64,000 bases of DNA from Rhizobiaceae bacterium (lineage in GTDB: Bacteria; Pseudomonadota; Alphaproteobacteria; Rhizobiales; Rhizobiaceae), in the NCBI GenBank assembly GCA_029233925.1, contig JARGOX010000002.1, positions 248,001-312,000 of the forward strand. Direction: 5' to 3'. Both the position numbers and the translations under genes were made by a program. This document shows positions 4,809 through 23,234 of this stretch, piece after piece (positions within the stretch are counted from its first letter, which is position 1; each line of letters opens with the position of its first letter). Below the pieces are notes generated by a model, which was given only the letters and a program-made list of their open reading frames with translations, was not told where the DNA came from and searched no databases.

Positions 4809-4856
4809 CTGGTAATCGTTCCGCTTTTCCGTTGTCCAATATTGGCGCTGCAAATC

Positions 4857-7807: not shown

Positions 7808-7884
7808 GGTTTGCGTAACACTTTCTCGCAGACAGCACGACCAACCGCAGCTTGGGCCGCGGCTGGCCGGCAATTCTGACGTTA

Positions 7885-8850
7885 CTATTTCATCGCCGCG
7901 TCGATCCATCCCTGCCAGCGCGGCTGGTTGGCGACCATCCAGGCTGCAAGTACGCTGTCCATGTCCTTGCCATTGGAATCGATGTCGCGCATCCAGGCGA
8001 TCTCATCCTTGTTGGTGATCGTCATCTGCTCAAGCAGGCGATAGGCCGCCGGCCACTCTTTCTTCATTCCGACCCAGGCGAGTTTCATGATTTCACCACG
8101 CTGCCAGTCACAGTCATAAACCGCAAGCGGGTTGATGCCTACTTTCGGATCGTCATAACATCCCGCCTCATAGGGCGGCAGAGCGACAGGGGTGAGTTCG
8201 GCAACCGCATGCACCCAGTGCGGCGACCAGAACATAACGAGCAATGGACGGTCACTCTTCTCGGCGCTGGTGATCTCGGCAACCAATGCACCTTCGCTGC
8301 CTGCGGGAATGGAAACCATAGGCAATTCCAGCGCCTTGATGCGATCCGCATTGGTTGTGCCCCAATCGGCAGGATAGTCGAGCAGTCGCCCGGTCGGGAA
8401 CGTTTCGGCTACTGCCAACGCCTGGGCGCAATCCTTCAATGCCGTCCAGTTCGGCAATCCGGGACAGGCCTCACCCGCCGCCTTGTTGTAGTACCAGGTC
8501 TCGACCGGATCGAGGCCGAGCGCGCCGATCTTCTCTACATTGCCGGACGCCATCGCCTTGGGATAATGCTCACCGGTGTTGGAACTCCAGACTTCAAGCG
8601 AAGCGGTTATAGAGCCATCGGGAATGGCAAGGAACTGCGTGTATGTGCCAGAAGTGACAAATTCGACAGTGTAGCCCATCTTCTCCAGAAGCTTGCCCGC
8701 GATATTGGTCACGGCCTGCTGGCCGGTCCATTCCAGCATGGCCAGTTTGATCGGGCTGTGGCTTTCGGGCACGGCCGTTTCTGCCATGCCCGCTGTTGTC
8801 CCCAGCGCCATCGTCAACGCTGTCGCAAGTCCAATAATTCGGCATTTCAT
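7885..8850 (-). CDS. choX: Choline ABC transporter periplasmic binding protein
   Basis: A 321-residue substrate-binding protein with a Sec signal peptide (MKCRIIGLATALTMALGTTA, cleavage near GMAETA) and an OpuAC-type fold. Several Trp residues (VWSSN, ETWYYNK, WSPHW) are suitable for the aromatic box that holds quaternary ammonium groups in this family. AAAGGAA lies 7-13 bases before the ATG. It sits between betA and choV on the reverse strand. Binding of choline, with acetylcholine as a weaker option in ChoX homologues, is established for the family and inferred here. Confidence 0.92.
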   Translation of the reverse strand: MKCRIIGLATALTMALGTTAGMAETAVPESHSPIKLAMLEWTGQQAVTNIAGKLLEKMGYTVEFVTSGTYTQFLAIPDGSITASLEVWSSNTGEHYPKAMASGNVEKIGALGLDPVETWYYNKAAGEACPGLPNWTALKDCAQALAVAETFPTGRLLDYPADWGTTNADRIKALELPMVSIPAGSEGALVAEITSAEKSDRPLLVMFWSPHWVHAVAELTPVALPPYEAGCYDDPKVGINPLAVYDCDWQRGEIMKLAWVGMKKEWPAAYRLLEQMTITNKDEIAWMRDIDSNGKDMDSVLAAWMVANQPRWQGWIDAAMK

Positions 8851-8903
8851 CGCATTGTTCCTTTTTCCGTATCAGTTCGAATGGTTGTCCATATCTCGCA
8901 GTA

Positions 8904-10553
8904 TCAGTTCAATCGCCGCTCCGTTTCGGCTTCAGGGGAAAACACCGCCACATGTTCAGGCGGAAGCGGGCTCCTGCCTCGTATGGCATCGGCGATTTTC
9001 TCGGCAATCATGATGGTCGGCGCATTGGTGTTGCCGCTGACAATATCCGGCATGATCGAAGCATCGACCACGCGCAGCCCTGCGACCCCGCGCACCTGGC
9101 CGTGTTCGTCCACGACAGACTGCGCATCCATTCCCATTCGGCAGGTCCCTACCGGGTGATAGGCGCTTTCCACGCGGCGCCGGACGAAACCATCGATCTC
9201 CTCATCATTCACAATATCTTCGCCAGGTTGCAGTTCCGTGCCGCGATAGGGATCAAATGCCGACTGACCGATGATGGCGCGGGTCAGCCGGATACCTGCC
9301 TGGAATTCGATACGGTCTTCCTCCGCCTGCAGGTAGTTGAAGAGTATTCCGGGCACGGCAAGCGGGTCTGGGCTCTTGAGCCAAACGCGTCCGCGACTCT
9401 TTGGCCGCATCGGCCCGACATGTGCCTGGAAACCATGCGACTTGATCGGGTTCTTGCCGTCATAATCCACGGCAACCGGCAGAAAATGAAACTGCAGGTC
9501 CGGATGGAGGGACCGATCCGATATTCTCGCGAATCCGCCGGTCTCAAACTGGCAAGAGGCTCCAGGGCCGCTCCGTCGAAGCAGCCACTCAATTCCGACC
9601 CTGAGCTTGCCCAGGGGCCGGGTCAGCGGATAGATCGACACAGGCTGCGTGCATTCATGCTGCACATAGACCTCGAGGTGGTCCTGCAGATTTCGCCCGA
9701 CATCGGGTGAATCCACAAGCACATCGATCCCGGTCTCGCGCAGATGTTCCGCCGGCCCGATTCCGGACAGCATCAGCAGTTGGGGCGAATTTATCGTACC
9801 GCCACACAGGATGACCTCGCACCGAGCAGTCGCACGCCGCTTGTCACGCCCCACCAGAAAGTCGACACCACTGGCTCGACCCTCCTCGAACCGCAGACCG
9901 GTTGCCCGTGCACCCGTAACCACCTCAAGGTTTTGGCGCTTCATGGCCGGACGCAGGAAGGCGCGCGCAGTACTCTCGCGCACACCGCCTCGAATGGTCA
10001 TGTCCATTGGCCCGACGCCTTCCGACCGGAATCCGTTCTGGTCATCGCTATAACCAAGGCCCGCCTGCCGGCCGGCTGCAAGCCAGGCCTTGTGCAGAGG
10101 GTTGCTCATCGCCGCGCGATGAACGCCAAGTGGTCCACCCTCGGCATGGTAAGCATCCGCACCAAGTTCACGGTGCTCGGAATGCTTGAAATAGGGAAGT
10201 ACACTGGCATAGTCCCACCCGGTCAGCCCATAGGAGGCCCAGCGGTCGTAATCATGCGGATGTCCGCGAACATAGGCCATGCCGTTAATGGATGAACTGC
10301 CGCCTAAAACCCGACCGCGCGGGCAATACATCCGCCGCCCTTCGAGATAGGGTTCAGGCTCGCTCCAATAGGCCCAGTTGAAACGCGTACCGGAAAGAGG
10401 ATAGGCCAGCGCCGCTGGCATGGAAAGGAAGATGGAGCGATCCTTGCCGCCTGCTTCGAGCAGCAGAACGGTGAATTTCCCGTCTTCACTCAAGCGATTT
10501 GCAAGCACGCATCCGGCGGAACCGGCACCGACAATGATGTAGTCAAACTCCAT
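8904..10553 (-). CDS. betA: Choline dehydrogenase (GMC oxidoreductase)
   Basis: A 549-residue FAD enzyme oxidising choline to betaine aldehyde at the membrane. It shows the FAD dinucleotide motif VGAGSAGC at about 8-15, the GMC signature GGSSSINGM, the second GMC motif AGCEVILCGGTINSPQLLMLSG-type region (here SPQLLMLSGIGP) and the catalytic His in ESAYHPVGTCRMG. Length agrees with BetA (about 550). It follows betB by 35 bases and precedes choX by 53. Other GMC alcohol dehydrogenases look similar; the operon decides for choline. Confidence 0.93.
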   Translation of the reverse strand: MEFDYIIVGAGSAGCVLANRLSEDGKFTVLLLEAGGKDRSIFLSMPAALAYPLSGTRFNWAYWSEPEPYLEGRRMYCPRGRVLGGSSSINGMAYVRGHPHDYDRWASYGLTGWDYASVLPYFKHSEHRELGADAYHAEGGPLGVHRAAMSNPLHKAWLAAGRQAGLGYSDDQNGFRSEGVGPMDMTIRGGVRESTARAFLRPAMKRQNLEVVTGARATGLRFEEGRASGVDFLVGRDKRRATARCEVILCGGTINSPQLLMLSGIGPAEHLRETGIDVLVDSPDVGRNLQDHLEVYVQHECTQPVSIYPLTRPLGKLRVGIEWLLRRSGPGASCQFETGGFARISDRSLHPDLQFHFLPVAVDYDGKNPIKSHGFQAHVGPMRPKSRGRVWLKSPDPLAVPGILFNYLQAEEDRIEFQAGIRLTRAIIGQSAFDPYRGTELQPGEDIVNDEEIDGFVRRRVESAYHPVGTCRMGMDAQSVVDEHGQVRGVAGLRVVDASIMPDIVSGNTNAPTIMIAEKIADAIRGRSPLPPEHVAVFSPEAETERRLN

Positions 10554-10588: not shown

Positions 10589-12055
10589 TCATGCAAAGGC
10601 ATCGGCGATATCTCCGGTGCGCACGAACACGCTTTTCAGCTGCGTATAATGATCAATGACGGCCTTGCCGTTTTCCCGGCCAAGCCCGGACGCCTTGTAG
10701 CCCCCGAACGGCATCGAAACAGGCAGATCGTGATAGGAGTTGATCCAGCAGGTTCCCACCTGAAGTCTTGCCACCACACGATGAGCGCGCGAGATGTCAC
10801 GCGTGAAGACACCGGCGGCAAGACCGTAGGGTGTCGCATTGGCGCGCGCGATCACCTCGTCTTCGGTGTCAAATGGGAGGACAGACATGACCGGGCCGAA
10901 AATCTCTTCCCTGACATGCGCCATTTCATCTTCCGAGTCGGCAAAGACCGTGGGCTCGACAAAATAGCCATCCGCCAGCGCGGGATCGGCAGGCCTGCCG
11001 CCGCCACAGATCAGCCGGGCGCCGGAGGCCTTCGCAGCATGAATGCAAGACATTACCTTTTCGAGATGCTCGGCGGAAATAAGGGCACCCACCCGGGTTT
11101 CGGGATCCATGGGCGCGCCGATTTGCAGCGCGCGCGTTCGAACAGCCAGTTGCTCCAGGAAAGGTTCGTAAAGGCTCCCTTGGACAAAGACGCGTGTCCC
11201 ATTCGCACAGATTTCTCCCTGGGTCAGGAAATTGGCCAACATCGCCACGCGAACAGCGATTTCCACACTGGTGTCATCGAATATGATCAGCGGCGATTTT
11301 CCGCCAAGTTCGAGCGTGACCTCCTTCAGGGAGGCTGCCGCGCCCGCCATAACCTTCTTGCCGGTCGAAGCCTCACCCGTGAGCGACACCTTGCCAATAC
11401 CCGGGTGTGCAGTGAGCATCGCTCCGACACGGCCATCGCCCTGAACCACGTTGAACACGCCGTCCGGGACACCTGCCTCGGTATAGATCTCCGCCAGTTT
11501 GAGTGTGCTCAACGGCGTCACTTCGGATGGCTTGAACACCATGGCGTTCCCGCAAGCGAGCGCCGGCGCCGACTTCCACATGGCGATCTGGATTGGATAG
11601 TTCCAAGCCCCTATACCGGCGCAAACCCCTATCGGCTCGCGCCGTGTATAGGCGAAATTTTCTCCATAGTTCAGGAACTCACCGCTGATCGCGGGAGACA
11701 CTCCGGCAAAATACTCGATGCAGTCAACACCGGTGACGATGTCGACGGTTTCGGCTTCCCGAATGGGCTTTCCAGTGTCCAGAACCTCGAGCTCCGCCAA
11801 CTCCCGATTGCGGCTGCGCAAAATAGCCGCAGCGCGCATCATTATACGGGCACGCTCCTCAGCCGCCATCGCGGCCCAAATCTTCTGTCCACGGCTGGCC
11901 GATGCCACGGCCTCGTCAACATCGGCCTGAGAAGCCGATTGAACTGAACAGATCGCCTTGCCGGTCGCCGGGTTCATCGTCTCGAATGATTCTCCTGAAG
12001 TGGCATCCGCATATCGTCCATCAATATACAGTTTTTGATCTGCCATTCCGCTCAT
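10589..12055 (-). CDS. betB: Betaine aldehyde dehydrogenase
   Basis: A 488-residue NAD(P)-dependent aldehyde dehydrogenase that converts betaine aldehyde to glycine betaine. Key parts are the ALDH glutamate motif LELGGKSPL, the NAD-site motif [13 protein letters not shown] and the catalytic Cys in [11 protein letters not shown] chose ATG 12055 ([13 protein letters not shown]), with AAGGGAAA about 6 bases upstream; the frame stays open to 12217 without homology. It is the first gene of the choline operon, and its promoter region holds the paired 16-bp inverted repeats shared with the divergent dehydrogenase gene. Confidence 0.93.
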
Positions 12056-12123
12056 TGTCGTTTCCCTTGACCATCGATTACAGGAGGCCCCAGGCCCATC
12101 CGTGATGATAGGGTATGCCATTC

Positions 12124-12163
12124 TTGCACGTTTATGCAAACTTTTTCTTGCACAAATGTGCAA
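12124..12163. promoter_or_regulatory. Two 16-bp inverted repeats, candidate operator for betB and the divergent gene
   Basis: The sites TTGCACGTTTATGCAA (12124-12139) and TTGCACAAATGTGCAA (12148-12163) have the same outer arms TTGCA/TGCAA. The second is a perfect 7+2+7 palindrome, and their centres are 24 bp apart. They lie 69 bases before betB and 77 before the divergent dehydrogenase start. BetI is the obvious candidate ligand, as it is encoded in the operon, but this is inference. Confidence 0.6.
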
Positions 12164-12239
12164 TTTCCATATCGTGCCCCAATCGCGCCTCCGGAAACAA
12201 ATCCGGACGCCCCACACTTACAAAAGGGAAACAGATCAC

Positions 12240-13151
12240 ATGCGTATCGGTTTTATCGGACTTGGAACCATGGGAGGGGCAGCATCCCTGAACCTGATCA
12301 GGGGCGGACATGAGTTGACAGTCTGCGATCTTGACCGGAAACGCGCAGAGGAGCAAATCGCGCTCGGGGCGAAATGGGCAGATACCCCGGCCGAGGCCGT
12401 CAGGGGCGCCAGTGTCATCTACACCATGGTTTTCGGCCCCAGGCAAATTGAAGCGGTCATTCGGGGCGAGAGCGGAATCCTGTCTGCTATCAGCCCGGGC
12501 CAGGTCTGGATCGATATGACCACCAACGATCCCGAACTCGCCAAGGCGCTGGCACTTGATATCGAAGCCAAAGGCGGCGAGGCCATCGATGCGCCGGTCA
12601 CCGGCGCCGTAGATGGTGCCCGCAATGGCAACATGACGCAATTTGCGGGCGGAGACGAAGCCACCGTTGAACGGCTGCGCCCGATGATGGAACTCATGGG
12701 GCCGGTCCACTACATGGGCTCGAACGGGACCGGCTGCATCACCAAACTCGCCAGCAATCAACTATGGGCCATTCATGCCACCGCGATGGGCGAAGCGCTC
12801 GTCATGGCGGCAAAATCGGGTGTTGACCTGTCAAGAGTATGGGAAGCCCTGAAGATCGGCGCGTCAAACAGCTGGTGCCTGCATCATGACGCGCCATCCG
12901 TGTTCCAGGGCCACTACGACCCCTCCTTCACGCTGGATCTTTGCATGAAAGACCTGGGGCTGATCGTTGGCGCCTGCGATGCAGCGCAAACCGAAGCCAG
13001 CGTCACACGGCTCGTCCATGACCGGTTCCAAAAGGCTCGCGAGACCTATGGCGGCGACAAGGGTGAACTGCATGTCGTCAAGCTTGAGGAAGATGCCGCC
13101 GGTCTGTCCCTGCGGATGGACGGCGACTGGGTTCCCCATTGGCAGAAGTAG
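12240..13151 (+). CDS. NAD(P)-dependent beta-hydroxyacid dehydrogenase (HIBADH family)
   Basis: A 303-residue protein of the 3-hydroxyisobutyrate/6-phosphogluconate dehydrogenase-like family. It has an N-terminal Rossmann motif GFIGLGTMGG (4-13), the substrate-site segment DAPVTGAVDGARNG (about 118-130) and the catalytic Lys in GCITKLASNQ (Lys169). AAGGG lies about 13 bases upstream of the ATG, and the leader-like residues further up are not homologous. It diverges from betB across the palindrome pair, which suggests shared control with choline genes. The exact hydroxyacid substrate cannot be read from the sequence. Confidence 0.85.
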   Translation: MRIGFIGLGTMGGAASLNLIRGGHELTVCDLDRKRAEEQIALGAKWADTPAEAVRGASVIYTMVFGPRQIEAVIRGESGILSAISPGQVWIDMTTNDPELAKALALDIEAKGGEAIDAPVTGAVDGARNGNMTQFAGGDEATVERLRPMMELMGPVHYMGSNGTGCITKLASNQLWAIHATAMGEALVMAAKSGVDLSRVWEALKIGASNSWCLHHDAPSVFQGHYDPSFTLDLCMKDLGLIVGACDAAQTEASVTRLVHDRFQKARETYGGDKGELHVVKLEEDAAGLSLRMDGDWVPHWQK

Positions 13152-13374: not shown

Positions 13375-14709
13375 TCAATCCACCGGCAAGCCACTTGGCA
13401 CGCTGTCAGGACGGCCAAGCGGTGGTCGCTCCGCGCCCCTGCCCTCGAGCGCATGAAGAAAGGCGATGAGATCGTCCACCTCTTCGTCCTGCAACGGCAC
13501 AGGCTGAATATCCACGCGGGATCGAAGGCGCGCCATTTCGCGTTTGTCGTCCAGGGCAACAAAATCCACCGGCTTCAGCCAGGGCGCTTCCGGCAGATGG
13601 GCCATCTCCCTTTGCCAGCGCTCCAGACCACCCGGGGCATCCAGATGATGCGTGATGATGCCGCGCAGATCCGGATAGGCGCCATTGTGGCCATAGGGGG
13701 CGGTCAGGGTGACGTTGCGCAGCGACGGCGTGCGAAAGCGATAGGCATCGTCAAGATCATCCGTTTCACCCATGCGCCCCACATCGCGGGCATAGGGGTC
13801 AAACAATCTGGTGCGGCCGGGACCAATCGGCGGCAATGCCAGGGCATGGAATTTCTGATCGCTGAGCAGCGGGCCCGAATGGCAGGTCGAACAGGCGGCC
13901 TTGCCATAGAACAGGTCGAGACCCTTTTTCTGGTCCGGCGCAAGGGCCGAGGCGTCACCGGCCAGATAGGCATCAAACGGCGAATCGCTGCTTTGCCACT
14001 CGGTGCCCATGAAGGCGGCAAGGGCCTCGGCAATTTCAATGATGGTGATGTCCGTCGCGGTTTCCACACGGTCGAAGGCGTCGGCGAACCGCTCCGCATA
14101 GGCGGGCAGGCTTCTGACGCGTTTGGCCAGGATCGGCCAGACCTTGTCGATCCGGTCATAGGCCGCTCCGGCCACCTCGTTTTCCTTCGGGTCTCCGGCC
14201 ATTTCAAACTGGCTGGTCATCGGCAACAGGGCCTGTGCGGCGAGCAGGTTCGGCAGACCTTTGGGCAACCATTCCTCGGCCGGCGAATTGAAGCCATTTT
14301 CATAGGCGTCGGACCGTTCGAGGCGCCCGTCGTGAAAAAGCGCGGTGATTTCCTTTGCCCCGAGATTCCACAGAGCTGTTGCGTTGCGGGGAATGCGTTT
14401 GGCAATACGGTCAGCACCAGTGCCGGCTGTTCTGTCGGGTCCAACGCCAATGCCGCCCTCACCGATGCCCAGCGACAGGCCATCCGCACTGCCATGATCA
14501 TGATGATGGCAGGTGCCGCAGGATATGTTGCGGTTGCCCGACAGGATCTTGTCGTAGAACAGTAATTGTCCCAGTTGCGCTTGCTTTGCATCAAAGGCGA
14601 TGAAATCATCGGGCTGAAGCGCGCGCGGCAGGTCATTGGCCAACAGGCTCACGGGCGATGCGGCGATCGTCCAAAACAGAACAATCAGAGATTTCAAATG
14701 CGTCATCAT
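13375..14709 (-). CDS. Di-haem cytochrome c peroxidase / MauG-family protein
   Basis: A 445-residue periplasmic protein with a signal peptide (MMTHLKSLIVLFWTIAASPV, cleavage near SLLAND) and two c-type haem sites, CGTCHHH (64-70) and CSTCHSG (273-279). This is the layout of bacterial di-haem peroxidases and MauG-like enzymes. Such enzymes reduce H2O2 with electrons from small cytochromes or oxidise protein substrates. The start is ATG 14709 or the adjacent ATG 14706; longer versions lose the signal peptide. Its first codons overlap the divergent Sel1 gene. The length is greater than classical CcpA (about 330), so peroxidase activity is not assured. Confidence 0.85.
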   Translation of the reverse strand: MMTHLKSLIVLFWTIAASPVSLLANDLPRALQPDDFIAFDAKQAQLGQLLFYDKILSGNRNISCGTCHHHDHGSADGLSLGIGEGGIGVGPDRTAGTGADRIAKRIPRNATALWNLGAKEITALFHDGRLERSDAYENGFNSPAEEWLPKGLPNLLAAQALLPMTSQFEMAGDPKENEVAGAAYDRIDKVWPILAKRVRSLPAYAERFADAFDRVETATDITIIEIAEALAAFMGTEWQSSDSPFDAYLAGDASALAPDQKKGLDLFYGKAACSTCHSGPLLSDQKFHALALPPIGPGRTRLFDPYARDVGRMGETDDLDDAYRFRTPSLRNVTLTAPYGHNGAYPDLRGIITHHLDAPGGLERWQREMAHLPEAPWLKPVDFVALDDKREMARLRSRVDIQPVPLQDEEVDDLIAFLHALEGRGAERPPLGRPDSVPSGLPVD

Positions 14710-15183
14710 CTCGTCATTCTTTGTTTTTCGCTTGCGGTTTTTCTGGCAGGCCCGGCCAGAGCCGATATTGAAGCAGCACGCGATCTGATGGAAGCAGGAA
14801 AATTCCAGCAGGCGCTGCAGGATCTGCTGCCGGCGGCCCGGTCGGGCAATGCGGATGCAGAGGAATTGATCGGTGTGATGTATGCCATGGGCCTGGGGGT
14901 GGAGCGCGATGATCGCCGCGCTTTCGAATGGTATCTGCGTGCTTCCATGAAAGGCCATCCCGGGGCGCAAAGCGGTATCGGCTGGTATTACGAGGTCGGG
15001 CGCGGCATGGAATCACCGGATCTTGTGCGCGCCTATATGTGGTATGTGCTTTCGGCCATTGGCGGCGATCCGGATGCGGCCATCAGCCAGGAGGAGGTCG
15101 TCAAGAAGATGACACCGCAGCAGATTGCCGATGCCCACCTGCTGATTGATGATTACAAGGCCTGGCTCTACCCGTTCCGTTAA
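14698..15183 (+). CDS. Secreted Sel1-repeat protein
   Basis: A 161-residue protein starting MRHHLVILCFSLAVFLAGPA, a clear Sec signal peptide with cleavage after ARA, followed by two Sel1-type helical repeats (AEELIGVMYAMGLGVERDDR, then AQSGIGWYYEVGRGMESPDL). Sel1 repeats are protein-interaction scaffolds, so a specific role cannot be assigned. The ATG at 14698 is required to keep the signal peptide, which places its start codon inside the divergent cytochrome peroxidase gene (12-base overlap). Expression of the two must therefore use promoters inside each other's coding sequence. Confidence 0.8.
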   Translation: MRHHLVILCFSLAVFLAGPARADIEAARDLMEAGKFQQALQDLLPAARSGNADAEELIGVMYAMGLGVERDDRRAFEWYLRASMKGHPGAQSGIGWYYEVGRGMESPDLVRAYMWYVLSAIGGDPDAAISQEEVVKKMTPQQIADAHLLIDDYKAWLYPFR

Positions 15184-15244: not shown

Positions 15245-16312
15245 CTAGTTCAGGTCTTTCATGTTGTCGGCCTGAATTTCCGCTTCTGCTTCAGCCACGG
15301 CGGTGGTCAATGCATCAAAGACTTCGGGACCGCCTTTGACGTTGGTCTTGAACCATTCATAGACGGGGGAAGCGGCTTCCTTGAAGGCGGCTTTTTCCTC
15401 AGGGGTCGGCACATAAAGATCACCACCGCCGGCAACAAAATCTTCATAGGCCTGGATCGACTTGCGCTTCGGCGAGGCAAAGGTTGCCTGCTGCAGGGCA
15501 GAGAATCCGTCGACGATCACCTGGCGCAGATCCTCCGGCATGGATTTGAAGGTATCATTGTTCATCCACCACAGGGCGCCCATATAGGCATGGCCATCAA
15601 GGGTCAGATATTGCAGGCCGGCATCGGGGAATTTCATGCCCATGATGTCGGTGATGCCGTTCTTGGAGCCTTCAACCACACCCGTCTGGAAAGAGGTGAA
15701 GAGTTCCGGCCATGGGATCGGAGTGGGCGATGCGCCGAGCGATTTCACCAGTTCCTGCGGCAGGTCGGCAACCACGGTGCGGATCTTCAGGCCTTCCATA
15801 TCGCCGGGGTTCTGCAACCGGCGCTTGGTGTTGGCAAAATTGCGCCAGCCACCCGTATTGCCGATGGTCATCAGCCGGATCTTGTCACCGGAATCTTTCA
15901 GCGCCATATCGCGCACGGTGCGGGTAAAGTCACCGGACAGGACATTTTCCGCAATGCGGTCGTTGGCCATCAGGTAGGGCAGATCAAGAACCTGAACATA
16001 GGGGAAGGCGCCGGCCGCGCCACCGGATGTCGAAATATAGATATCGATCGAACCGTCGGCCACGCCCTGCAGGCATTCAGCGCCCTTTGAGCAAAGCTGG
16101 GTCCCAATGAAGAGTTCGACGCCGATCTTGCCGTTGGATGCGGCTTCCACGTAGTTCTTGAAAACCACCAGACCATCATAGTCTTCATCGTTCTCGTTCG
16201 AGTTAGCCGTGGCCCTGATGTTATAGTCGGCGGCCATGGCGGCAAATGAACCGACCGTCATCAGCGCCGCGGTCACGGCGGCTATGCCAAGAGTTTTCAA
16301 ACAGGATTTCAT
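15245..16312 (-). CDS. dctP: TRAP transporter substrate-binding protein, DctP family
   Basis: A 355-residue periplasmic protein with a Sec signal peptide (MKSCLKTLGIAAVTAALMTV, cleavage near AMAADY). The DctP core motif GLKIRTVVADLPQ contains the Arg that salt-bridges the substrate's anionic group, followed by the SFQTGVVEGSKNGI segment. A strong GGAGGAG precedes the ATG. It is the last gene of the operon led by the sulfonate monooxygenase, separated from dctM by 94 bases containing two hairpins. TRAP systems import carboxylates and, in known cases, sulfonates such as taurine and isethionate. I infer a sulfonate or sulfosugar ligand. Confidence 0.9.
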   Translation of the reverse strand: MKSCLKTLGIAAVTAALMTVGSFAAMAADYNIRATANSNENDEDYDGLVVFKNYVEAASNGKIGVELFIGTQLCSKGAECLQGVADGSIDIYISTSGGAAGAFPYVQVLDLPYLMANDRIAENVLSGDFTRTVRDMALKDSGDKIRLMTIGNTGGWRNFANTKRRLQNPGDMEGLKIRTVVADLPQELVKSLGASPTPIPWPELFTSFQTGVVEGSKNGITDIMGMKFPDAGLQYLTLDGHAYMGALWWMNNDTFKSMPEDLRQVIVDGFSALQQATFASPKRKSIQAYEDFVAGGGDLYVPTPEEKAAFKEAASPVYEWFKTNVKGGPEVFDALTTAVAEAEAEIQADNMKDLN

Positions 16313-16333
16313 AGAGTATCTCCTCCAAGTTGC

Positions 16334-16386
16334 GGGCCAATTGATCTGGCCCTTGAATGGTAAAGTTTCACCGGAAGGTTTCCGGT
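16334..16386 (-). promoter_or_regulatory. Two stem-loops between dctM and dctP
   Basis: Perfect stems GGGCCA/TGGCCC (16334-16339 with 16347-16352) and ACCGGAA/TTCCGGT (16370-16376 with 16380-16386) fill the gap between the two cistrons, just before the dctP ribosome site. Neither has a T tract. In many importer operons such hairpins stabilise a processed transcript so that the binding protein is made in excess, and this is the likely role. Confidence 0.45.
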
Positions 16387-16406
16387 CGTAACGAGATCAA
16401 ACCTCC

Positions 16407-17933
16407 CTAGTTGAACATGTGCAGTACCGGCCCCATCAGGTCAGCCCCTTTGACAAGGCCGAGCCAGGAAGGAATGCCCAGCGAGATAATGGGGAAATAG
16501 GTGATCAGAAAAATCACCACGACCTCAACGGCCAGAAACGGCAATATGGCCCTGGAGATCGTTTCCACCTTCACCCCCGAAACGGATGAAGCGACAAAAA
16601 GCACAAGGCCCATGGGCGGGGTGGCCAATCCGACGGTCAGGTTGACCGACATGATCATGGCAAAGTGCACGGGGTGAATGCCCATATTGATGAAGATCGG
16701 CGCCAGGATCGGCCCCAGTATGATGATGGCCGGGCCAGCGTCCAGAAACATGCCGACAATGAACAGCAGCAGGTTGATCAGCAGCAGCAACAGCAGCGGA
16801 TCGCTGGTCAACGACAGGATCCATTGGGCGAGATTTTCCGCCGCATAGGAGAGGCTGACAACCGTCTTGAAGGCCATGGCGGCACCGACCAGCAGCAAAA
16901 CGACAGCCGAAGTAATCGATGCCTTGATCAGGATGCAGTGCATTTCTGACCATTTCAGCGTCCGCAGGATGAAAAGCCCGAGAAAGGCCGCATAGGCCAC
17001 AGCCAGCGCCGAAGCTTCGGTTGGCGTGGCCACGCCGCCTAGGATGCCGCCCAGAATGATGACCGGTGTGAGCAGCGGCAGCACGGCGCGTTTGGCGGTG
17101 ATGCGGAAGTTTTCTGAAACAAGGCGCCGCTGAATCTGGAAGACAATCTCCGACATGACCAGAGCACCGGCGAAATACATGGAAAACTGCCCCCAGGTCC
17201 GGTCACCCTCAAAACCCGCAAGCTTCAACAGCAGCGGATAAAAAACACCGGCGAGCATTATTCTGGCGATAATCCGGGCCGCGATGTTTTCCCCGGCGGA
17301 AATCGAAACACCTTCCTGGCTGACCCTTTTGGCTGGCGGATAATCGTAATGATTTGCCATCAGACGGGTAACGATCATCAGGCCGGCACCGACCAGAATA
17401 CCCGGAATGATCCCGCCGGCAAACAGGGCGGCGACGGAAACCTCCATGACATAGGCGTAGATGATCATGATGCCCGACGGCGGAATGATCGGGCCAATCA
17501 CCGATGAAGCAGCCGTAATGGCAGCGGCGAAACGGCGGGTATAGCCTTCCTTTTCCATGGCCGGTATCAGCATGGAACCCAGCGCTGACGTATCGGCCAC
17601 GGCAGAACCGGACATGCCTGCAAACAGCATGGAAGACAGAATGTTGACCTGCGCCAGACCGCCGCGCACCGAACCGATCAAAGCCTGACTGAAGTTGACA
17701 AGGCGCTCGGTGATGCCGCCGCGGTTCATCAATTCGCCGGCCAGCATGAAAAACGGGATGGCCAGCAGCACGCCATTGTCTATGCCGTTGAAGATATTGC
17801 GATACATCAGGGCGATGTCGCGTTCCTGGCCATTGAGATAGAGCAGGATGCCGGGCGCTGCGAGCATGGCGAAAAAGACCGGGACCCCAATCAGCAGCAT
17901 GACGAGAAAGAGTGGCAGAAACCATACAAGCAT
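16407..17933 (-). CDS. dctM: TRAP transporter large permease, DctM family
   Basis: A 508-residue polytopic membrane protein of the DctM/SiaM family, about 12 or more membrane segments, including typical stretches AIPFFMLAGELMNRGGI, GSAVADTSALGSMLIPAM and GPIIPPSGIMIIYAY. It forms the Na+-coupled transport channel with DctQ and receives substrate from DctP. It is somewhat longer than the usual 425-440 residues because of an extra loop near 205-285. The start ATG at 17933 lies 2 bases after the dctQ stop codon, so the two are coupled. Confidence 0.93.
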   Translation of the reverse strand: MLVWFLPLFLVMLLIGVPVFFAMLAAPGILLYLNGQERDIALMYRNIFNGIDNGVLLAIPFFMLAGELMNRGGITERLVNFSQALIGSVRGGLAQVNILSSMLFAGMSGSAVADTSALGSMLIPAMEKEGYTRRFAAAITAASSVIGPIIPPSGIMIIYAYVMEVSVAALFAGGIIPGILVGAGLMIVTRLMANHYDYPPAKRVSQEGVSISAGENIAARIIARIMLAGVFYPLLLKLAGFEGDRTWGQFSMYFAGALVMSEIVFQIQRRLVSENFRITAKRAVLPLLTPVIILGGILGGVATPTEASALAVAYAAFLGLFILRTLKWSEMHCILIKASITSAVVLLLVGAAMAFKTVVSLSYAAENLAQWILSLTSDPLLLLLLINLLLFIVGMFLDAGPAIIILGPILAPIFINMGIHPVHFAMIMSVNLTVGLATPPMGLVLFVASSVSGVKVETISRAILPFLAVEVVVIFLITYFPIISLGIPSWLGLVKGADLMGPVLHMFN

Positions 17934-17935
17934 GT

Positions 17936-18577
17936 TCAGTCCACCGCCATCGAGATAGGCGCAACGGGCGCCTGAAAATCGTCGTCCGTCCAGATCAACC
18001 GACCCAGCGTGCGCATGATGAGCTCAATACACACACTGAGCAGAAGAACCATCAGGACCGACATGGCAAGATAGATATAGGCGGTGCGAAATTGCAGTTT
18101 GGTGCCAAGCAGCTCATTGATGCCACTGTCCTGCAGCAGGCGGTTGAGGCCGGATGAATCAAACAGCAGGGGCGCGGAAAAATGCGCCCAGGCCTGCCCA
18201 AACATGACAATCATTGCGGCGAGTGACAGGGTGAGAATCGCAAGGGCGAGCAAAAGCCTTGGCCGGCGTGGCAGCATATCCGGCAGCATGTCGATCGAGA
18301 CAAAGCCCGCATAGCGGTAGGCGGAGGGCGCCACCAGGGCCATCATCCAGATCATCAGGGCGCGGGCGGCCTCTTCAGGCCACGGCAGGGCATTGTTGAG
18401 GACATAGCGGAAGAAGATCTGCAACAGCACAGCGGCGACCATCAGCCCCATGGCGGCGCCGCCAATGCCACGGCACACGCGCAACACAAAGGCATTGATG
18501 CCTCCGTGAACAGCGAGAACTGTCCGCAATCCTTCCAAATTCATCTCCTCCCGGGCATGCGCGGCTCTCCCTGCCAT
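17936..18577 (-). CDS. dctQ: TRAP transporter small permease, DctQ family
   Basis: A protein of about 213 residues with four predicted membrane segments and the DctQ hallmark FFRYVLNNALPWPEEAARAL, which contacts the large permease. The start is uncertain: ATG 18580/18577 has AAGGGG a few bases upstream, while ATG 18544 has GGGAGGAG but only 2 bases spacing. Longer and shorter forms differ only in a polar leader. It lies 22 bases downstream of the flavin reductase gene and directly before dctM, in one operon. Confidence 0.88.
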   Translation of the reverse strand: MAGRAAHAREEMNLEGLRTVLAVHGGINAFVLRVCRGIGGAAMGLMVAAVLLQIFFRYVLNNALPWPEEAARALMIWMMALVAPSAYRYAGFVSIDMLPDMLPRRPRLLLALAILTLSLAAMIVMFGQAWAHFSAPLLFDSSGLNRLLQDSGINELLGTKLQFRTAYIYLAMSVLMVLLLSVCIELIMRTLGRLIWTDDDFQAPVAPISMAVD

Positions 18578-18599
18578 CATCCCCTTTCATGCAAGCATA

Positions 18600-19169
18600 T
18601 CAGTCGTTGCGGCGAAAGCCTCCAAATGATCCCTTTGCAAAAATCAACGGTTCTGACTGCCGATGGACAAAATTCTCCACCTGTCCGACAATAATCAGAT
18701 GATCGCCAGCATCGTGAACAGCGTTTCTCGTGCAATCAAACCGGGCAATGGCGCCCTCGATCTGGGGAACCCCATGGCCATTCAACACCCAATCGCACGC
18801 ATGAAAAGCATTGCCATTGCGCGCAAAGGCCGATGCCAGATCCTGCTGATCGGCACACAGGACATGAATGGCATAGTTTTGCGCTTCGGCAAATGGCGCA
18901 AAGCGGCCTGATGATTTGGCAAGCGACCACAGAACCAGAGCCGGATCAAGCGAGACCGAGGCAAAGGAATTGACCGTCATGCCGACCGGACCTTCCGACC
19001 CCGTCGCGGTGATGATGGTGACACCGGTGCCGAAATTTCCCAACGCATCGCGATAGGCACGCTGGTTGAACGGCGTCACGCGAGGTGTCACGCTGACTGG
19101 GGGTTCGCTGCGCATCGCATCGTCAACGCGCTCGTCCATCGTCGAAATTGAGAAAGTACAACCTTCCAT
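18600..19169 (-). CDS. Flavin reductase of a two-component monooxygenase (SmoA-like)
   Basis: A 189-residue flavin reductase-domain protein (HpaC/SsuE-type partner role) with the family core NFGTGVTIITATG, MTVNSFASVSLDPALVLWSL and SFGGFRRND at the end. It supplies reduced FMN from NAD(P)H to the adjacent SsuD-like monooxygenase. The ATG at 19169 shares its A with the stop codon of the aldo/keto reductase (TGATG), with GGAGG about 8 bases upstream, which fixes the start. In the oxidative sulfoquinovose pathway SmoA is this kind of reductase; the equivalence is inferred from fold and synteny. Confidence 0.85.
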   Translation of the reverse strand: MEGCTFSISTMDERVDDAMRSEPPVSVTPRVTPFNQRAYRDALGNFGTGVTIITATGSEGPVGMTVNSFASVSLDPALVLWSLAKSSGRFAPFAEAQNYAIHVLCADQQDLASAFARNGNAFHACDWVLNGHGVPQIEGAIARFDCTRNAVHDAGDHLIIVGQVENFVHRQSEPLIFAKGSFGGFRRND

Positions 19170-20071
19170 CAGGCCACCTCCCGGCCAAGAGCCAAAGTGT
19201 AGATCTCGAACCATGTCTGGCGATCCAGCGTTGTTGATGTCGCCTCATGGAAGCGCTTGATACGATCAAGACTATTGGTGCCCATGACCGGTATGATGCC
19301 TGCCGGGTGAGCCAGCAACCAGGCAATGGCGAGACTGTCGACACCAATCCCGCGTTGCGCCGCGATGCGGCCCATGCCGTAGCGTATTTCCTGCGTGTGC
19401 TTGTTGCCCTGTTCGAACAAGGCGCCCCCACTCAAGGGCGACCACGCCATGGGTCTGACGCCCATTTGCTGGTGAAAGGCCAGATCGCCATTGGTAAAGG
19501 CCTCATGGGCCATGACGCTTATCTCGATCTGATTGGTCACAAGGGGCGTCTTTGTTGCCGATTGCAGCAAGCTCCAGTCATGGGGCTTGAAATTGGAAAC
19601 ACCGATTGCACCGACCTTGCCTGAGGTCACGGCCCGGTCGAGCGCGGCCCCGGTTTCGTGGTGATCCATGAATGGATCGGGCCGATGAATGAGCAGCAAA
19701 TCGATATGTTCGATCTTCATCAAGGCCAGCGAATGATTGATCGATGCCTCGATGTGGGCTGCAGAGGTGTCGTAATATTTGACGCGCGCATCGCTGTAGC
19801 GGCCAGCGGGCGCAACAATATCGCATTTGGTGATGATCTCGAGCTTGTCGCGCAATGCCGGCGCCTGGGCAAAACAGTCTCCCAAAAGGGCCTCTGCCTG
19901 ATAGCCACCATAGATATCGGCCTGGTCCATCGTCGTTACGCCCTGTTCAAGACAGGCTTCAATTTTTGCCTGGACCTGCGCGGGTGATGTATCGGCATCA
20001 TCGCCCAGCCGCCACATGCCATAGACGATGCGGCTCACGTCCAGATTGTCGTTGAGTTTTACACGGTCCAT
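19169..20071 (-). CDS. Aldo/keto reductase (SmoB-like candidate)
   Basis: A 300-residue NADPH-dependent aldo/keto reductase. The catalytic tetrad reads Asp49 and Tyr54 (MDQADIYGGY), Lys82 (ITKCD) and His129 (LLIHRPD), with the cofactor-binding region IGVSNFKPHDW and a C-terminal PVMGTNSLDRIKR. Such enzymes interconvert sugar aldehydes and alcohols. In the SmoABC pathway an AKR reduces 6-oxo-glucose, released by sulfoquinovose desulfonation, to glucose. Position between the monooxygenase and the flavin reductase, with TGATG overlaps at both ends, supports a direct downstream step. The closest annotated family is YdhF-like, so another carbonyl substrate is possible. Confidence 0.87.
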   Translation of the reverse strand: MDRVKLNDNLDVSRIVYGMWRLGDDADTSPAQVQAKIEACLEQGVTTMDQADIYGGYQAEALLGDCFAQAPALRDKLEIITKCDIVAPAGRYSDARVKYYDTSAAHIEASINHSLALMKIEHIDLLLIHRPDPFMDHHETGAALDRAVTSGKVGAIGVSNFKPHDWSLLQSATKTPLVTNQIEISVMAHEAFTNGDLAFHQQMGVRPMAWSPLSGGALFEQGNKHTQEIRYGMGRIAAQRGIGVDSLAIAWLLAHPAGIIPVMGTNSLDRIKRFHEATSTTLDRQTWFEIYTLALGREVA

Positions 20072-21249
20072 CAGCGTCTCGTTCCATTGCCCAGCGGTGT
20101 GGGCGGTGTGGTGTCCGGGATGCGGCCCTGAAGTTGTGGCAGCGAACAGGTTTCCAATTGTGGCAACACCCGTTTGCCGAAGCTTTCACACTCATCAAGA
20201 TGCGGGTAGCCGGAGAAAATAAAGGCCCTTATGCCCATCTTCTTGTAGTCTTCAATTTGCGAAAGAACCTGATCCGTGGAGCCGACAAGCGCTGCTCCAC
20301 AGCCGGAGCGGGCCCGGCCGATACCGGTCCACAGGTTGGGTTCGATATAGCCTTCCAGATTTGCCAGTTCACGGTTTTTCGCCTGATGGGAAACGCCGAG
20401 CGACGTGGCGTCGAGTGCCCGCTCGCGAATGATGCGTCCCTGCTCATCGTCCAGCCGGGAAACCAGCTCGCGAGCATATTCGCGTGCCTCGGCTTCCGTA
20501 TCGCGCACAATCATGTGGACCCGCAGGCCGTAGTCCAGAACCCGGCCATAATGGGCCGCGCGCTCATGCACGGCTTTCATGCGCTCGGCAAGTTCTTCCT
20601 TCTTTTCCGGCCACATCAGATAGACGTCACAATGTTCGCCGCACAGATCAAGCGCCGGCGGCGAATAGCCGCCGAAATACAAAAGAGGCCCGCCGTTCTG
20701 CTGATAGGGCCGCACCGGATCCGTGGTCAGCCCCTCGAACTGATAGACTTGCCCCTGGTAGTTGATTTCATCCTGAGTCCAGGCCTGCTTGAGGATTTCA
20801 ACCACCTCGCGTGAACGCTGGTAGCGATAGGCACTGTCTTCTTTCTGGCCGGGAAAATCCGAGGAAATGATATTGATCGTCAGCCGACCCTTCATCATAT
20901 GGTCGAGGGTGGCAATCGTGCGGGCCAGCATGATCGGCTGCATTTCACCGCAGCGCACCGCTGCCAGCATGTTGATGTTTTGCGTCAGCGGAGCGTTTCC
21001 CGCCACAAAGCTCAGGGTATCCTGGCCTACCTGATAGGAAGAAGGGCACAGAATATTGCGGTAACCCAGCCTGTCGGCGGTCTGGACGATATTCGACGTG
21101 TTTTGCCAGGAAGACCGCAGGTCTCCATCGGGCACCCCCAGATAGCGATAATCGTCCGAACACAATGGTGCAAACCATGCCACTTCGGCGGCTGTCGTAT
21201 CGGCAGATCGGATGGGAACAACTGACATGCGTGTTGCTGCTTTCATCAT
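20071..21249 (-). CDS. SsuD/SmoC-like FMNH2-dependent sulfonate monooxygenase
   Basis: A 392-residue LLM-class (bacterial luciferase-like) enzyme. Residues that in SsuD form the sulfonate and flavin site are present: Arg243 and His245 in GLRVHMIVRDT, Arg314 in GRARSGCG, Tyr348 in FIFSGYPHLDE and Cys68 in ILCPSSY. The family uses FMNH2 and O2 to split C-S bonds, releasing sulfite and an aldehyde. It is first in an operon with an aldo/keto reductase, flavin reductase and TRAP transporter, the order expected for a SmoC-SmoB-SmoA-like desulfonation route. ATG 21249 or 21246 is the start; the ribosome site is weak. Confidence 0.9.
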   Translation of the reverse strand: MMKAATRMSVVPIRSADTTAAEVAWFAPLCSDDYRYLGVPDGDLRSSWQNTSNIVQTADRLGYRNILCPSSYQVGQDTLSFVAGNAPLTQNINMLAAVRCGEMQPIMLARTIATLDHMMKGRLTINIISSDFPGQKEDSAYRYQRSREVVEILKQAWTQDEINYQGQVYQFEGLTTDPVRPYQQNGGPLLYFGGYSPPALDLCGEHCDVYLMWPEKKEELAERMKAVHERAAHYGRVLDYGLRVHMIVRDTEAEAREYARELVSRLDDEQGRIIRERALDATSLGVSHQAKNRELANLEGYIEPNLWTGIGRARSGCGAALVGSTDQVLSQIEDYKKMGIRAFIFSGYPHLDECESFGKRVLPQLETCSLPQLQGRIPDTTPPTPLGNGTRR

Positions 21250-21294
21250 TGCGAATTGCGTTCCGTTGCATCCTGTGTAACATAGAAAAATATA

Positions 21295-21314
21295 TGTATC
21301 AATCGTGTATCAAT
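21295..21314. promoter_or_regulatory. Direct repeats TGTATCAAT, candidate GntR operator
   Basis: Two perfect copies of TGTATCAAT (21295-21303 and 21306-21314) lie 11 bp apart, one helical turn, in the 73-base AT-rich gap between the divergent monooxygenase operon and the GntR gene. Their place suits an operator for the adjacent GntR/UTRA protein controlling both directions. The binding partner is inferred. Confidence 0.5.
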
Positions 21315-21322
21315 TTAAAGTC

Positions 21323-22078
21323 ATGACCCTGGAAAAAGACAAAAGCTCCGATCGTTCGCCCGCCTACAGCACCCATGGCGGCAGGTTGCCGCTGCACGTG
21401 CAGGTCAGCGAATTGCTGGCGCGCGAAATTCAGGCAGGCATCATACCGGACGGGGAGCGGCTGGCGCCGGAACGTCAAATGGCGGCACAAATGGGCATCG
21501 CGGTGGGCACCCTGCGCAAGGCTCTGGCCGACCTGACGGAAAAAGGCCTTCTGGAAAGGGTACAGGGCTCGGGAAATTATGCCCGCAACACCAAGGAAGC
21601 GCGCACAATCTACGGTTTCTTCCACCTCGAACTGATCGAGGGTGGCGGCCTGCCGACAGCTGAAATCCTCTCCGTGGACCGGATGGTCAAACCCGATGAC
21701 CTGCCGGACTTTGGCATATCACGCGAAGGTTTTCGCATCAAACGTCTGCGGCGGCTCAATGGCATTGATGCGGCGCTGGAGGAAATCTGGCTGGACGGAT
21801 CGCGCGCCGATAGCGTCCGGACGGAAGACCTGCGTGATTCCCTCTATGTCTTTTACCGCAAGAAACTCAACCTTTGGATTTTCCAGGCCACCGACTCGGT
21901 CAGCGTGGCGCCGGTACCCGAATGGCAACCCGACAATTTTGCAAGCCAGCCTTCCGGTTCAAATGCCCACTGGGGCTATATCGAACGCATGAGCTATGAC
22001 CAGAAAAATGTAAGCGCCGAATATTCGCGCACCTGGTTTGACCCGAAAACAACGCGCTTTGTCGCCCGGTGGAATTGA
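21323..22078 (+). CDS. GntR-family regulator with UTRA ligand domain
   Basis: A 251-residue regulator with an N-terminal winged helix (LPLHVQVSELLAREIQAG, then ERQMAAQMGIAVGTLRKAL, then KGLLERVQGSGNYA) and a C-terminal UTRA-type domain (IKRLRRLNGIDAALEEIWLD; YIERMSYDQKNVSAEYSRTW). HutC-type GntR proteins usually bind sugar phosphates or small organic acids and repress neighbouring catabolic genes. I took ATG 21323; a GTG at 21305 would put the direct repeats inside the coding region. It diverges from the monooxygenase-TRAP operon and precedes the Gfo/Idh/MocA gene by 13 bases. Confidence 0.85.
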   Translation: MTLEKDKSSDRSPAYSTHGGRLPLHVQVSELLAREIQAGIIPDGERLAPERQMAAQMGIAVGTLRKALADLTEKGLLERVQGSGNYARNTKEARTIYGFFHLELIEGGGLPTAEILSVDRMVKPDDLPDFGISREGFRIKRLRRLNGIDAALEEIWLDGSRADSVRTEDLRDSLYVFYRKKLNLWIFQATDSVSVAPVPEWQPDNFASQPSGSNAHWGYIERMSYDQKNVSAEYSRTWFDPKTTRFVARWN

Positions 22079-22091
22079 AGGATCCGGATAA

Positions 22092-23234
22092 ATGACACCA
22101 CTACGTTATGGCATGATCGGTTGCGGCATGATGGGCCAGGAGCACATCCGCAATATCAAGCTGCTTGAAAATGCTGCCGTGACTGCCATCGTTGAGCCTG
22201 ACGCGGGCATGCGGGCAGCGGCGCGCAATCTGGTGCCGGATGTTGCCTTTGAGGACAGTATCGAAACCCTGTTGCGCCGGCACGACGTCGACTGCCTTGT
22301 CATCGCCAGCCCCAATTATCAGCATGCGGACCAACTCCGGCGAATCGCTTCAATCTGTACGAAGCCAATTTTGTGTGAAAAGCCTTTGATCACCGATCCC
22401 GCCGATGAAGGCCTGATTGATGACTTGTCGGCAAACTATGCCGCACCCATCTGGGTCGCAATGGAATATCGTTACATGCCGCCCATTGCTGCGCTGCTTG
22501 AACAGGTGGAGCATGCCACCGGCGGCATCAAAATGCTGACCATTCGCGAGCACCGCTTTCCCTTTCTCAGCAAGGTCGGCAACTGGAATCGTTTCAACGC
22601 CAAATCCGGCGGCACATTGGTGGAAAAATGCTGTCACTTTTTCGACCTCATGCGGCTGATTCTCAAGTCTGAGCCGATCCGGGTCGTCGCCTCTGCCGGC
22701 CAGGCGGCAAACCATCTTGACGAGATCTATGATGAGCAACGCTCCGATGTCTGGGACCACGGCTATGTGATGGTGGATTTCCAATCCGGAGCCAGAGCCA
22801 TGCTGGAACTTTGCATGTTCGCGGAGGGATCACAGTATCAGGAAGAAATTTCCGCTGTTGGCCTCAACGGCAAGATCGAATGCCTGGTGCCGGGACCACG
22901 GCGCTTCTGGCCCGCCCATCTGGGCGAGGCGCCGCAGCCGAAACTGATCGTCAGCCCGCGCCACCCTGTGGGCGCGCGCGTGGTCCATATTTCCGTCGAC
23001 CCGGTTCTGCTGGAAGCCGGTGATCACAATGGCGCGACCTTCTACCAGCACAAGCGATTTCAGCAGGTCGTTCTTGGAAAGTACGCCCCTGAGGTCACCA
23101 TGCATGACGGCCTGTCTGCGGTGCTGATGGGTATGGCCGCCCAGGAATCGGCGAAAACGGGGAGGGTTGTCACGCTCGCAAACCATGACGTTAACGCCGC
23201 GGCCCATCAACAGCGCATGGCGCTGGAAGGCTGA
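22092..23234 (+). CDS. Gfo/Idh/MocA-family oxidoreductase
   Basis: A 380-residue NAD(P)-dependent dehydrogenase with the N-terminal dinucleotide motif MIGCGMMGQEH (8-18) and the catalytic EKP motif (96-98, in CEKPLITD). The C-terminal alpha/beta domain contains GGTLVEKCCHFFDLMR. This family oxidises or epimerises sugars, inositols and related polyols. It is co-directional with the GntR gene and probably co-transcribed. In the cluster it is a candidate for the first oxidation of a sulfosugar or for handling a sugar acid, but its substrate is not shown by the sequence. Confidence 0.87.
   Translation: MTPLRYGMIGCGMMGQEHIRNIKLLENAAVTAIVEPDAGMRAAARNLVPDVAFEDSIETLLRRHDVDCLVIASPNYQHADQLRRIASICTKPILCEKPLITDPADEGLIDDLSANYAAPIWVAMEYRYMPPIAALLEQVEHATGGIKMLTIREHRFPFLSKVGNWNRFNAKSGGTLVEKCCHFFDLMRLILKSEPIRVVASAGQAANHLDEIYDEQRSDVWDHGYVMVDFQSGARAMLELCMFAEGSQYQEEISAVGLNGKIECLVPGPRRFWPAHLGEAPQPKLIVSPRHPVGARVVHISVDPVLLEAGDHNGATFYQHKRFQQVVLGKYAPEVTMHDGLSAVLMGMAAQESAKTGRVVTLANHDVNAAAHQQRMALEG

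Follow-up and report, generated by a model that had tools for sequence, protein, structure and literature searches.

How does a bacterium that appears equipped to desulfonate a sulfosugar bring that sugar into the cell, and which sulfosugar is it? The question is raised by a gene cluster in a Rhizobiaceae bacterium (GenBank assembly GCA_029233925.1, contig JARGOX010000002.1), within a stretch of 64,000 nucleotides covering contig positions 248,001 to 312,000; we call this whole stretch the window, and use its own numbering. The cluster joins the desulfonation genes smoC, smoB and smoA to the genes of a tripartite ATP-independent periplasmic (TRAP) transporter. We read it as a sulfolytic pathway for sulfoquinovose (SQ), a sulfur sugar of plants and algae, that is fed by a TRAP importer, and from the comparisons of sequences and gene neighborhoods given below, we would put the probability of this reading at about 0.86.

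On the minus strand, smoC (20071..21249), smoB (19169..20071) and smoA (18600..19169) are followed by dctQ (17936..18580), dctM (16407..17933) and dctP (15245..16312), for the small permease, the large permease and the solute-binding protein of the transporter, while genes for a GntR/UTRA regulator (21305..22078) and for a Gfo/Idh/MocA-type protein (22092..23234) diverge from them on the plus strand. The initial annotation of this DNA had listed these eight genes and TGATG overlaps at both smo junctions, and all of it was confirmed in place; the overlaps lie at 20073-20069 (SmoC/SmoB) and at 19171-19167 (SmoB/SmoA). Because of the second junction, the start of SmoA is 19169 and not 19214, the start of the longer open reading frame. 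The DctQ start lies 19 bases after SmoA, DctM follows after 2 bases, and DctP after 94. The cluster proteins match the Pfam families Bac_luciferase, Aldo_ket_red, Flavin_Reduct, DctQ, DctM, DctP, GntR with UTRA, and GFO_IDH_MocA. The sulfo-SMO pathway (SQ monooxygenase; also sulfo-ASMO) of Agrobacterium tumefaciens has the same flavin reductase, aldo/keto reductase and SQ monooxygenase (SmoA, SmoB and SmoC), with an ATP-binding cassette (ABC) importer and a GH31 glycosidase, whereas the window has a TRAP transporter, a GH188 protein, and neighboring genes for a Sel1-repeat protein and a di-haem protein. A TRAP in place of an ABC importer makes a different entry route probable, as had been suggested from the gene list alone.

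What the transporter carries can be asked of its relatives. We have used two overlapping genome samples, 289 genomes from an even sample of the window's class (Alphaproteobacteria) and 398 from its phylum, with E-value thresholds in the class sample of 1e-120 for SmoC, 1e-90 for DctP, 1e-40 for Sel1 and 1e-100 for the di-haem protein, and of 1e-80 for DctP in the phylum sample. In the class sample, SmoC is found in 6 genomes and a close DctP in 9, and all 6 genomes with SmoC are among those 9, an overlap with a chance of about 1e-10 under independence of the genomes, which does not hold. The Sel1 protein is found in the same 9 genomes, the di-haem protein in those 9 (62-100% identity) and also in genomes G119 (45%) and G260 (51%), and dctP, the Sel1 gene and the di-haem gene adjoin each other in all 9. 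The three of the nine that have no SmoC (loci L118-L120) carry the dctQMP-Sel1-di-haem block beside a kinase, an aldolase and an isomerase, with a GH188 relative (50%), a mutarotase and an aldehyde dehydrogenase among the neighbors. In L118, the kinase is PfkB, the aldolase is LacD-type, and the sole NCBIfam match of the isomerase is sulfoquinovose isomerase. Judged by its predicted families, L118 is a cluster for SQ similar to the EMP2 (Embden-Meyerhof-Parnas) type.

The phylum sample has a DctP of this kind in 17 genomes, 4 of them shared with the class sample and 13 new, and all 13 new loci hold SQ-type genes. Seven are SMO loci (L125-L131). L132 combines GH188 (54%), a TauD dioxygenase and an aldo/keto reductase, the SQ dioxygenase (SDO) type, and its di-haem match is merely 28%. 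L133 has a short-chain dehydrogenase/reductase, an Edd-type dehydratase, an HpcH/HpaI aldolase, an aldehyde dehydrogenase, TauE and a weak GH188 relative (34%), and is assigned as similar to the Entner-Doudoroff (ED) type. L134 is EMP2-like with GH188 (52%). Relatives of E. coli YihQ occur in L135 (53%), with Dak kinase, iron-containing alcohol dehydrogenase and TauE genes, and in L137 (54%), with TauD and an aldo/keto reductase; L136 has a relative of E. coli YihS (69%), again with TauD and an aldo/keto reductase. A side observation concerns L135, where at 4369-9309 the GH31 sulfoquinovosidase relative adjoins Dak1/Dak2 and the alcohol dehydrogenase gene beside the TRAP dctP, an arrangement that suggests that the glycerol from sulfoquinovosyl glycerol is used.

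Altogether 22 genomes have a close DctP, and 21 of them show a link between it and SQ genes (the window and 20/20 loci fetched); the 22nd, G233, has its smoC on another contig and is counted as having a close DctP, not as linked. The 21 divide into SMO (12, window included), EMP2-like (4), and one each of SDO, ED-like, GH31, GH31 with SDO, and EMP with SDO. As controls we took 20 of the 49 DctP rows outside the clade, mostly the best scoring, with 25-35% identity and from 13 genomes. Within the 19.5 kb fetched around each, markers for SmoC, GH188, GH31, SQ isomerase, SqoD, YihS, Edd, Sel1 and the di-haem protein gave no match above 60 bits at any of the 20 loci; one control locus has a 60-bit aldo/keto reductase match. 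A DctP tree gathers the 35 SQ-linked rows in a single group (support 100/100). Since close DctPs are linked to varied SQ pathways and distant ones are not, the TRAP seems to track the substrate, and not one degradation chemistry.

We have also compared the best 80 loci by SmoC out of at least 582 confirmed ones, which are thus the nearest loci and not a random set. Downstream of smoC, dctQ, dctM and dctP are all present in 43/80. GH188 is near smoC in 69, a GntR gene is found in 77, smoB in 68 and smoA in 72, and the full set (smoC, smoB, smoA, the TRAP genes, gntR and GH188) in 42. Seventy loci are well flanked, the others being clipped by contig ends, and 42 of these have the TRAP genes. The same gene order is found in the annotated genomes of Rhizobium sp. 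SL42, Ruegeria sp. THAF33 and Ruegeria sp. TM1040. The arrangement is far beyond chance. The initial annotation had presented this cluster as a variant, and by these counts it is not a rare one: the TRAP variant is ordinary in Roseobacter-type bacteria, a cluster of known kind and of common layout.

The transporter proteins themselves agree with their families. Pfam DctP, DctQ and DctM matches are above the gathering scores, DctM reaches 391 bits for TIGR00786 (cut-off 268), and DctP is over the cut-off of NF037995 and under that of TIGR00787 (136 vs. 175). DctM comes in two lengths, 429 residues in 34/46 relatives and 488-511 residues in 12; with 508 residues, the window has the long form. 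A DctP structure model built with 24 sequences (mean predicted local distance difference test, pLDDT, 75) resembles TRAP binding proteins, and the Foldseek list has IseP, the isethionate binding protein (PDB 8t9t), in second place. The residues that hold the sulfonate in IseP include Arg156, Arg177 and Asn217 (PMC11668362; here and below, papers are cited for the portions of them that were available). IseP and the window DctP share the solute-binding fold and these motifs at about 25% identity, with R157, R178 and N218 of the window standing at the corresponding positions, as judged through an alignment to 4p47 and not directly to IseP. All three residues are present in 35/35 clade rows. What sets the clade apart from the controls is another set, C74, C80, D118, E122, N152, W156 and D222, each in 35/35 clade rows and in 0/20 controls. 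These seven are candidates for specificity, and the two cysteines, C74 and C80, possibly form a clade-typical disulfide.

Several observations weigh against an SQ importer, or weaken the evidence for it. R157, R178 and N218 are also found in 12, 20 and 18 of the 20 control DctPs, so what they indicate is a general anion site rather than specificity for SQ. Around the pocket, the DctP model is weak, with pLDDT under 50 at 154-161 and at 205-243. Adjacent TRAP genes are missing in 28/70 well-flanked smo loci. The EMP2 isomerase of L118 scores 252 bits, below the NCBIfam cut-off of 700. L133 is the least certain of the assignments: ED-like is suggested there by the 34% GH188 relative and by family composition, and no lactonase was identified at that locus. 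Some of the markers were taken from the clade loci themselves (the isomerase from L118, SqoD and a GH31 from L137, the YihS relative from L136, Edd from L133), so that their match at those source loci is trivial. Finally, the DctP tree carries a warning that long branches meet between L135-L137 and the controls.

Could the TRAP then serve another compound, such as a carboxylate or a C2 or C3 sulfonate like sulfolactate or 2,3-dihydroxypropanesulfonate, and merely neighbor the smo genes? There is precedent in that an arginine limits the substrates of the sialic acid TRAP to carboxylates (PMC4646407), and that a known sulfonate TRAP takes a small sulfonate, isethionate (PMC11668362). However, members of this one DctP clade accompany SMO, SDO, EMP and EMP2, and ED-like clusters, and SQ markers are near none of the 20 control DctPs. 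SMO and SDO yield glucose and sulfite, and no C3 sulfonate (PMC12890257), so the compound that these clusters share is SQ itself. We consider a transporter for another compound unlikely.

A pathway that takes up SQ glycosides would also need to split them, and the initial annotation had reported the glycosidase as missing. The Gfo/Idh/MocA-type protein (380 residues) turns out to match GH188, and we call it SqgA. It is 63% identical to PDB 8zn9, which is named just "Oxidoreductase, putative", and 48% to ArSqgA of Arthrobacter (8qc3), and it also matches the Flavobacterium enzyme FlSqgA (8qc2). ArSqgA and FlSqgA are NAD+-dependent sulfoquinovosidases and the founding members of GH188, and in ArSqgA the active site is formed by K107, Y136, Glu163, E189, H193 and H321, and the sulfonate site by R166, L170 and K172 (PMC10755693). 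The published residues map to K97, Y126, E153, R155, L159, K161, E178, H182 and H312 of the window, where the active-site set is kept and R155, L159 and K161 are the sulfonate site. (With R166 fixed, the Glu163 of the paper is position 164 of our alignment, position 163 being Val in ArSqgA and Arg in the window.) Each of the nine is identical in 69/69 relatives, with the exception of H312, which is found in 68, the other having a gap. As R155, L159 and K161 are present, the window SqgA is not one of the Tyr variants described in PMC11465081. An ordinary sugar dehydrogenase, the other candidate for this gene, is rejected by the GH188 matches and the kept active-site residues. The window SqgA shares family, catalytic residues and sulfonate residues with the two characterized enzymes, and differs in that it would serve a sulfolytic pathway and not sulfo-EMP. 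A PF01055 search of the window's own genome found no GH31 (the same search is positive in 6/14 control genomes), and a search of that genome with E. coli YihQ, which had no positive control, was also empty. By these matches, the predicted glycosidase is present in another form, GH188 instead of GH31.

The same residues bear on whether the cluster may degrade a different sulfosugar, for instance sulfofucose, by SmoC-like chemistry, as had been suggested from the added TRAP and MocA-type genes. A sulfofucose pathway is known in Paracoccus, but the clusters described for it use ABC importers and ED-type enzymes (PMC12421959). SqgA retains the SQ contacts reported for ArSqgA, and relatives of the DctP clade stand beside relatives of YihQ (53-54%) and YihS (69%). 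Nothing that we found favors another sulfosugar; the enzyme residues and the genomic setting would both point to SQ, and we regard this alternative as very improbable.

The desulfonation enzymes fit the known sulfo-SMO pathway by predicted family and identity. Over 384 residues, SmoC shares 74% identity with PDB 7olf and 7oh2, which we take to be SmoC structures (their PDB names are methanesulfonate sulfonatase and alkanesulfonate monooxygenase); its identity with E. coli SsuD is 34%. In the phylogeny that the initial annotation had proposed as a check (30 proteins), the window protein groups with the SmoC rows, as do 7olf and 7oh2, apart from E. coli SsuD and the luciferase-like monooxygenases of related genomes, which form a separate group of 10 with support 98/99; Sphingomonas and Spirosoma proteins (52-54%) are placed between the SmoC and SsuD groups. 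This tree is rooted only for display, and several of its long branches are uncertain. The Arg, His and Tyr of the sulfonate site that had been noted from the sequence are indeed present (R243, H245, Y348), but they are not specific to SmoC: these three, with W213 and H350, presumably the site positions of SmoC, are identical in 83/83 SmoC relatives and in E. coli SsuD, so the set does not discriminate SmoC and was rejected as proof of it. The SmoC assignment is one from identity and tree, not from site residues, and it upholds the original call of SmoCBA-type desulfonation genes. That SmoC is instead an SsuD-type alkanesulfonate monooxygenase for sulfur scavenging is scarcely credible, since the shared site and a best NCBIfam match to TIGR03565 are outweighed by the identities, by a score of 258 bits where the SsuD family cut-off is 518, by the separate tree groups, and by the fact that plain alkanesulfonates leave SmoB and GH188 without use.

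SmoB, the putative aldo/keto reductase from 6-dehydroglucose to glucose, has its best PDB matches in 7bby and 7bbz, with 415 bits vs. 213 for the next; we take these to be SmoB structures, although their PDB names differ. SmoA matches the NCBIfam family FerA with 204 bits, under the cut-off of 260. A published sulfo-SMO criterion is that SmoB and SmoC both lie within a short gene window (PMC13372026), and here both do. Among the 80 loci there are departures. Eight Mesorhizobium loci (L019, L020, L049, L054, L056, L060, L068, L080) have smoC, smoA and GH188 and no adjacent smoB match, and another enzyme may reduce 6-dehydroglucose there. In the available flank, the Granulosicoccus smoC genes (L005, L006, L007; 81-83% identical) lack matches to smoB, to GH188 and to a close TRAP; L009 resembles them, but its contig stops 1.4 kb upstream.

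The route that we propose would begin in the periplasm, where DctP would bind either SQ itself or, as seems likelier, one of its glycosides, for example sulfoquinovosyl glycerol, with R157, R178 and N218 gripping the sulfonate, and DctQM would carry the ligand inward. SqgA would then split the glycoside by a transient NAD+-dependent oxidation at C3, a mechanism established for the family and assigned here from the kept residues. SmoA would provide reduced flavin, with which SmoC would remove the sulfonate as sulfite to give 6-dehydroglucose, and SmoB would reduce this to glucose; these steps are established for the pathway and carried over to the window by homology.

The GntR/UTRA protein probably represses both arms of the cluster. 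Two direct ATTGATACA copies, read on the minus strand, lie at 21295..21315, and such repeats between gntR and smoC, found by 7-mer counts, are kept in most relatives: ATTGATA, TGATACA and TTGATAC each occur in 66-70 of the 80 gntR-smoC regions, which take in up to about 60 bases of gntR. The ATTGATACA repeats are thus a candidate operator for this regulator. As the GTG at 21305 falls inside the conserved repeat, the true start of the regulator is likely the ATG at 21323. The likely start of smoC is 21228.

How does the locus compare with what has been described? Kaur et al. 2023 (PMC10755693) report that GH188 is near-universal in the sulfo-SMO clusters of Roseobacter, clusters that share GH188 and the smo genes with the window; the nearest named relatives of its SmoC, among the matches listed, are metagenome-assembled genomes of the Rhizobiaceae group. 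That account, in its available portion, does not discuss TRAP genes. The SQ uptake systems named in PMC12421959, as far as its available text goes, are ABC importers, E. coli YihO is annotated as a putative SQ transporter, and the word TRAP is absent from the main text of a 2026 review (PMC12890257). We found no description of an SQ TRAP in the literature searched, a search without Liu et al. 2023 (marine Roseobacter) and Sharma et al. 2022 (Agrobacterium), where the TRAP may already be reported. The smo core is already known; what would be new is the evidence, drawn from several pathways, that this TRAP clade is an importer of SQ or its glycosides, and the Sel1 and di-haem pair beside it. SQ is made at about 10 billion tons a year (PMC10755693). 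If the TRAP clade does follow SQ genes, it would allow SQ use to be recognized in genomes and metagenomes whatever the pathway, and it would represent a sodium-driven route of entry that suits seawater.

The Sel1 and di-haem genes stand downstream of dctP. The small Sel1-repeat protein (Pfam Sel1; 14698..15183, plus strand) and the di-haem protein related to cytochrome c peroxidase and MauG (13375..14709, minus strand) are divergent with overlapping starts, at 14698 and at 14706-14709. The latter has CxxCH at 55 and 264 of a 435-residue piece and matches Pfam CCP_MauG; its model has a mean pLDDT of 70, and H345 does not vary among 17 sequences of this protein. From their signal-peptide-like starts, both are probably periplasmic, an accessory pair that would be attached to the importer. 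The pair is downstream of dctP in 34/42 well-flanked smo loci with TRAP and in 0/28 without. In the two samples, it is beside dctP in 12/22 genomes (9/9 in the class, 3/13 of those new in the phylum), so it belongs to just one branch of the DctP clade. A pair that is part of every SQ-TRAP is rejected by its absence near dctP in 8 of those 42 loci and in 10/13 of the new phylum-sample loci. In a genome-wide scan of 35 genomes, a close di-haem orthologue (62-74%) occurs at another place in the genome for 2 of those 8 loci (G329 for L002, G333 for L050), and one in 1/27 genomes without TRAP beside smoC (G338); eleven others of the 35 have matches of 44-48% at most, which we read as paralogues.

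The pair is also found beside three EMP2-like clusters, which makes a role in flavin or sulfite chemistry unlikely. Our guess is a periplasmic redox role linked to uptake, and its presence suggests that periplasmic redox chemistry may be tied to SQ uptake; no paper testing such a link was found in the literature searched. A larger proposal, which we make tentatively and would sooner expect to fail than to hold, is that the DctP clade is an undescribed TRAP family dedicated to SQ or SQ glycosides and exchanged between at least four catabolic routes, with one branch working with a dedicated periplasmic pair of Sel1 and di-haem MauG-like proteins whose target, ahead of import, would be the receptor or the ligand derived from the sulfolipid.

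Beyond the pair, at 10589-13151 of the window, there is a gene that by eye from its translation resembles betaine aldehyde dehydrogenase, and another like 3-hydroxyisobutyrate dehydrogenase, for which matches of merely 30-35% are found in 4/80 loci.

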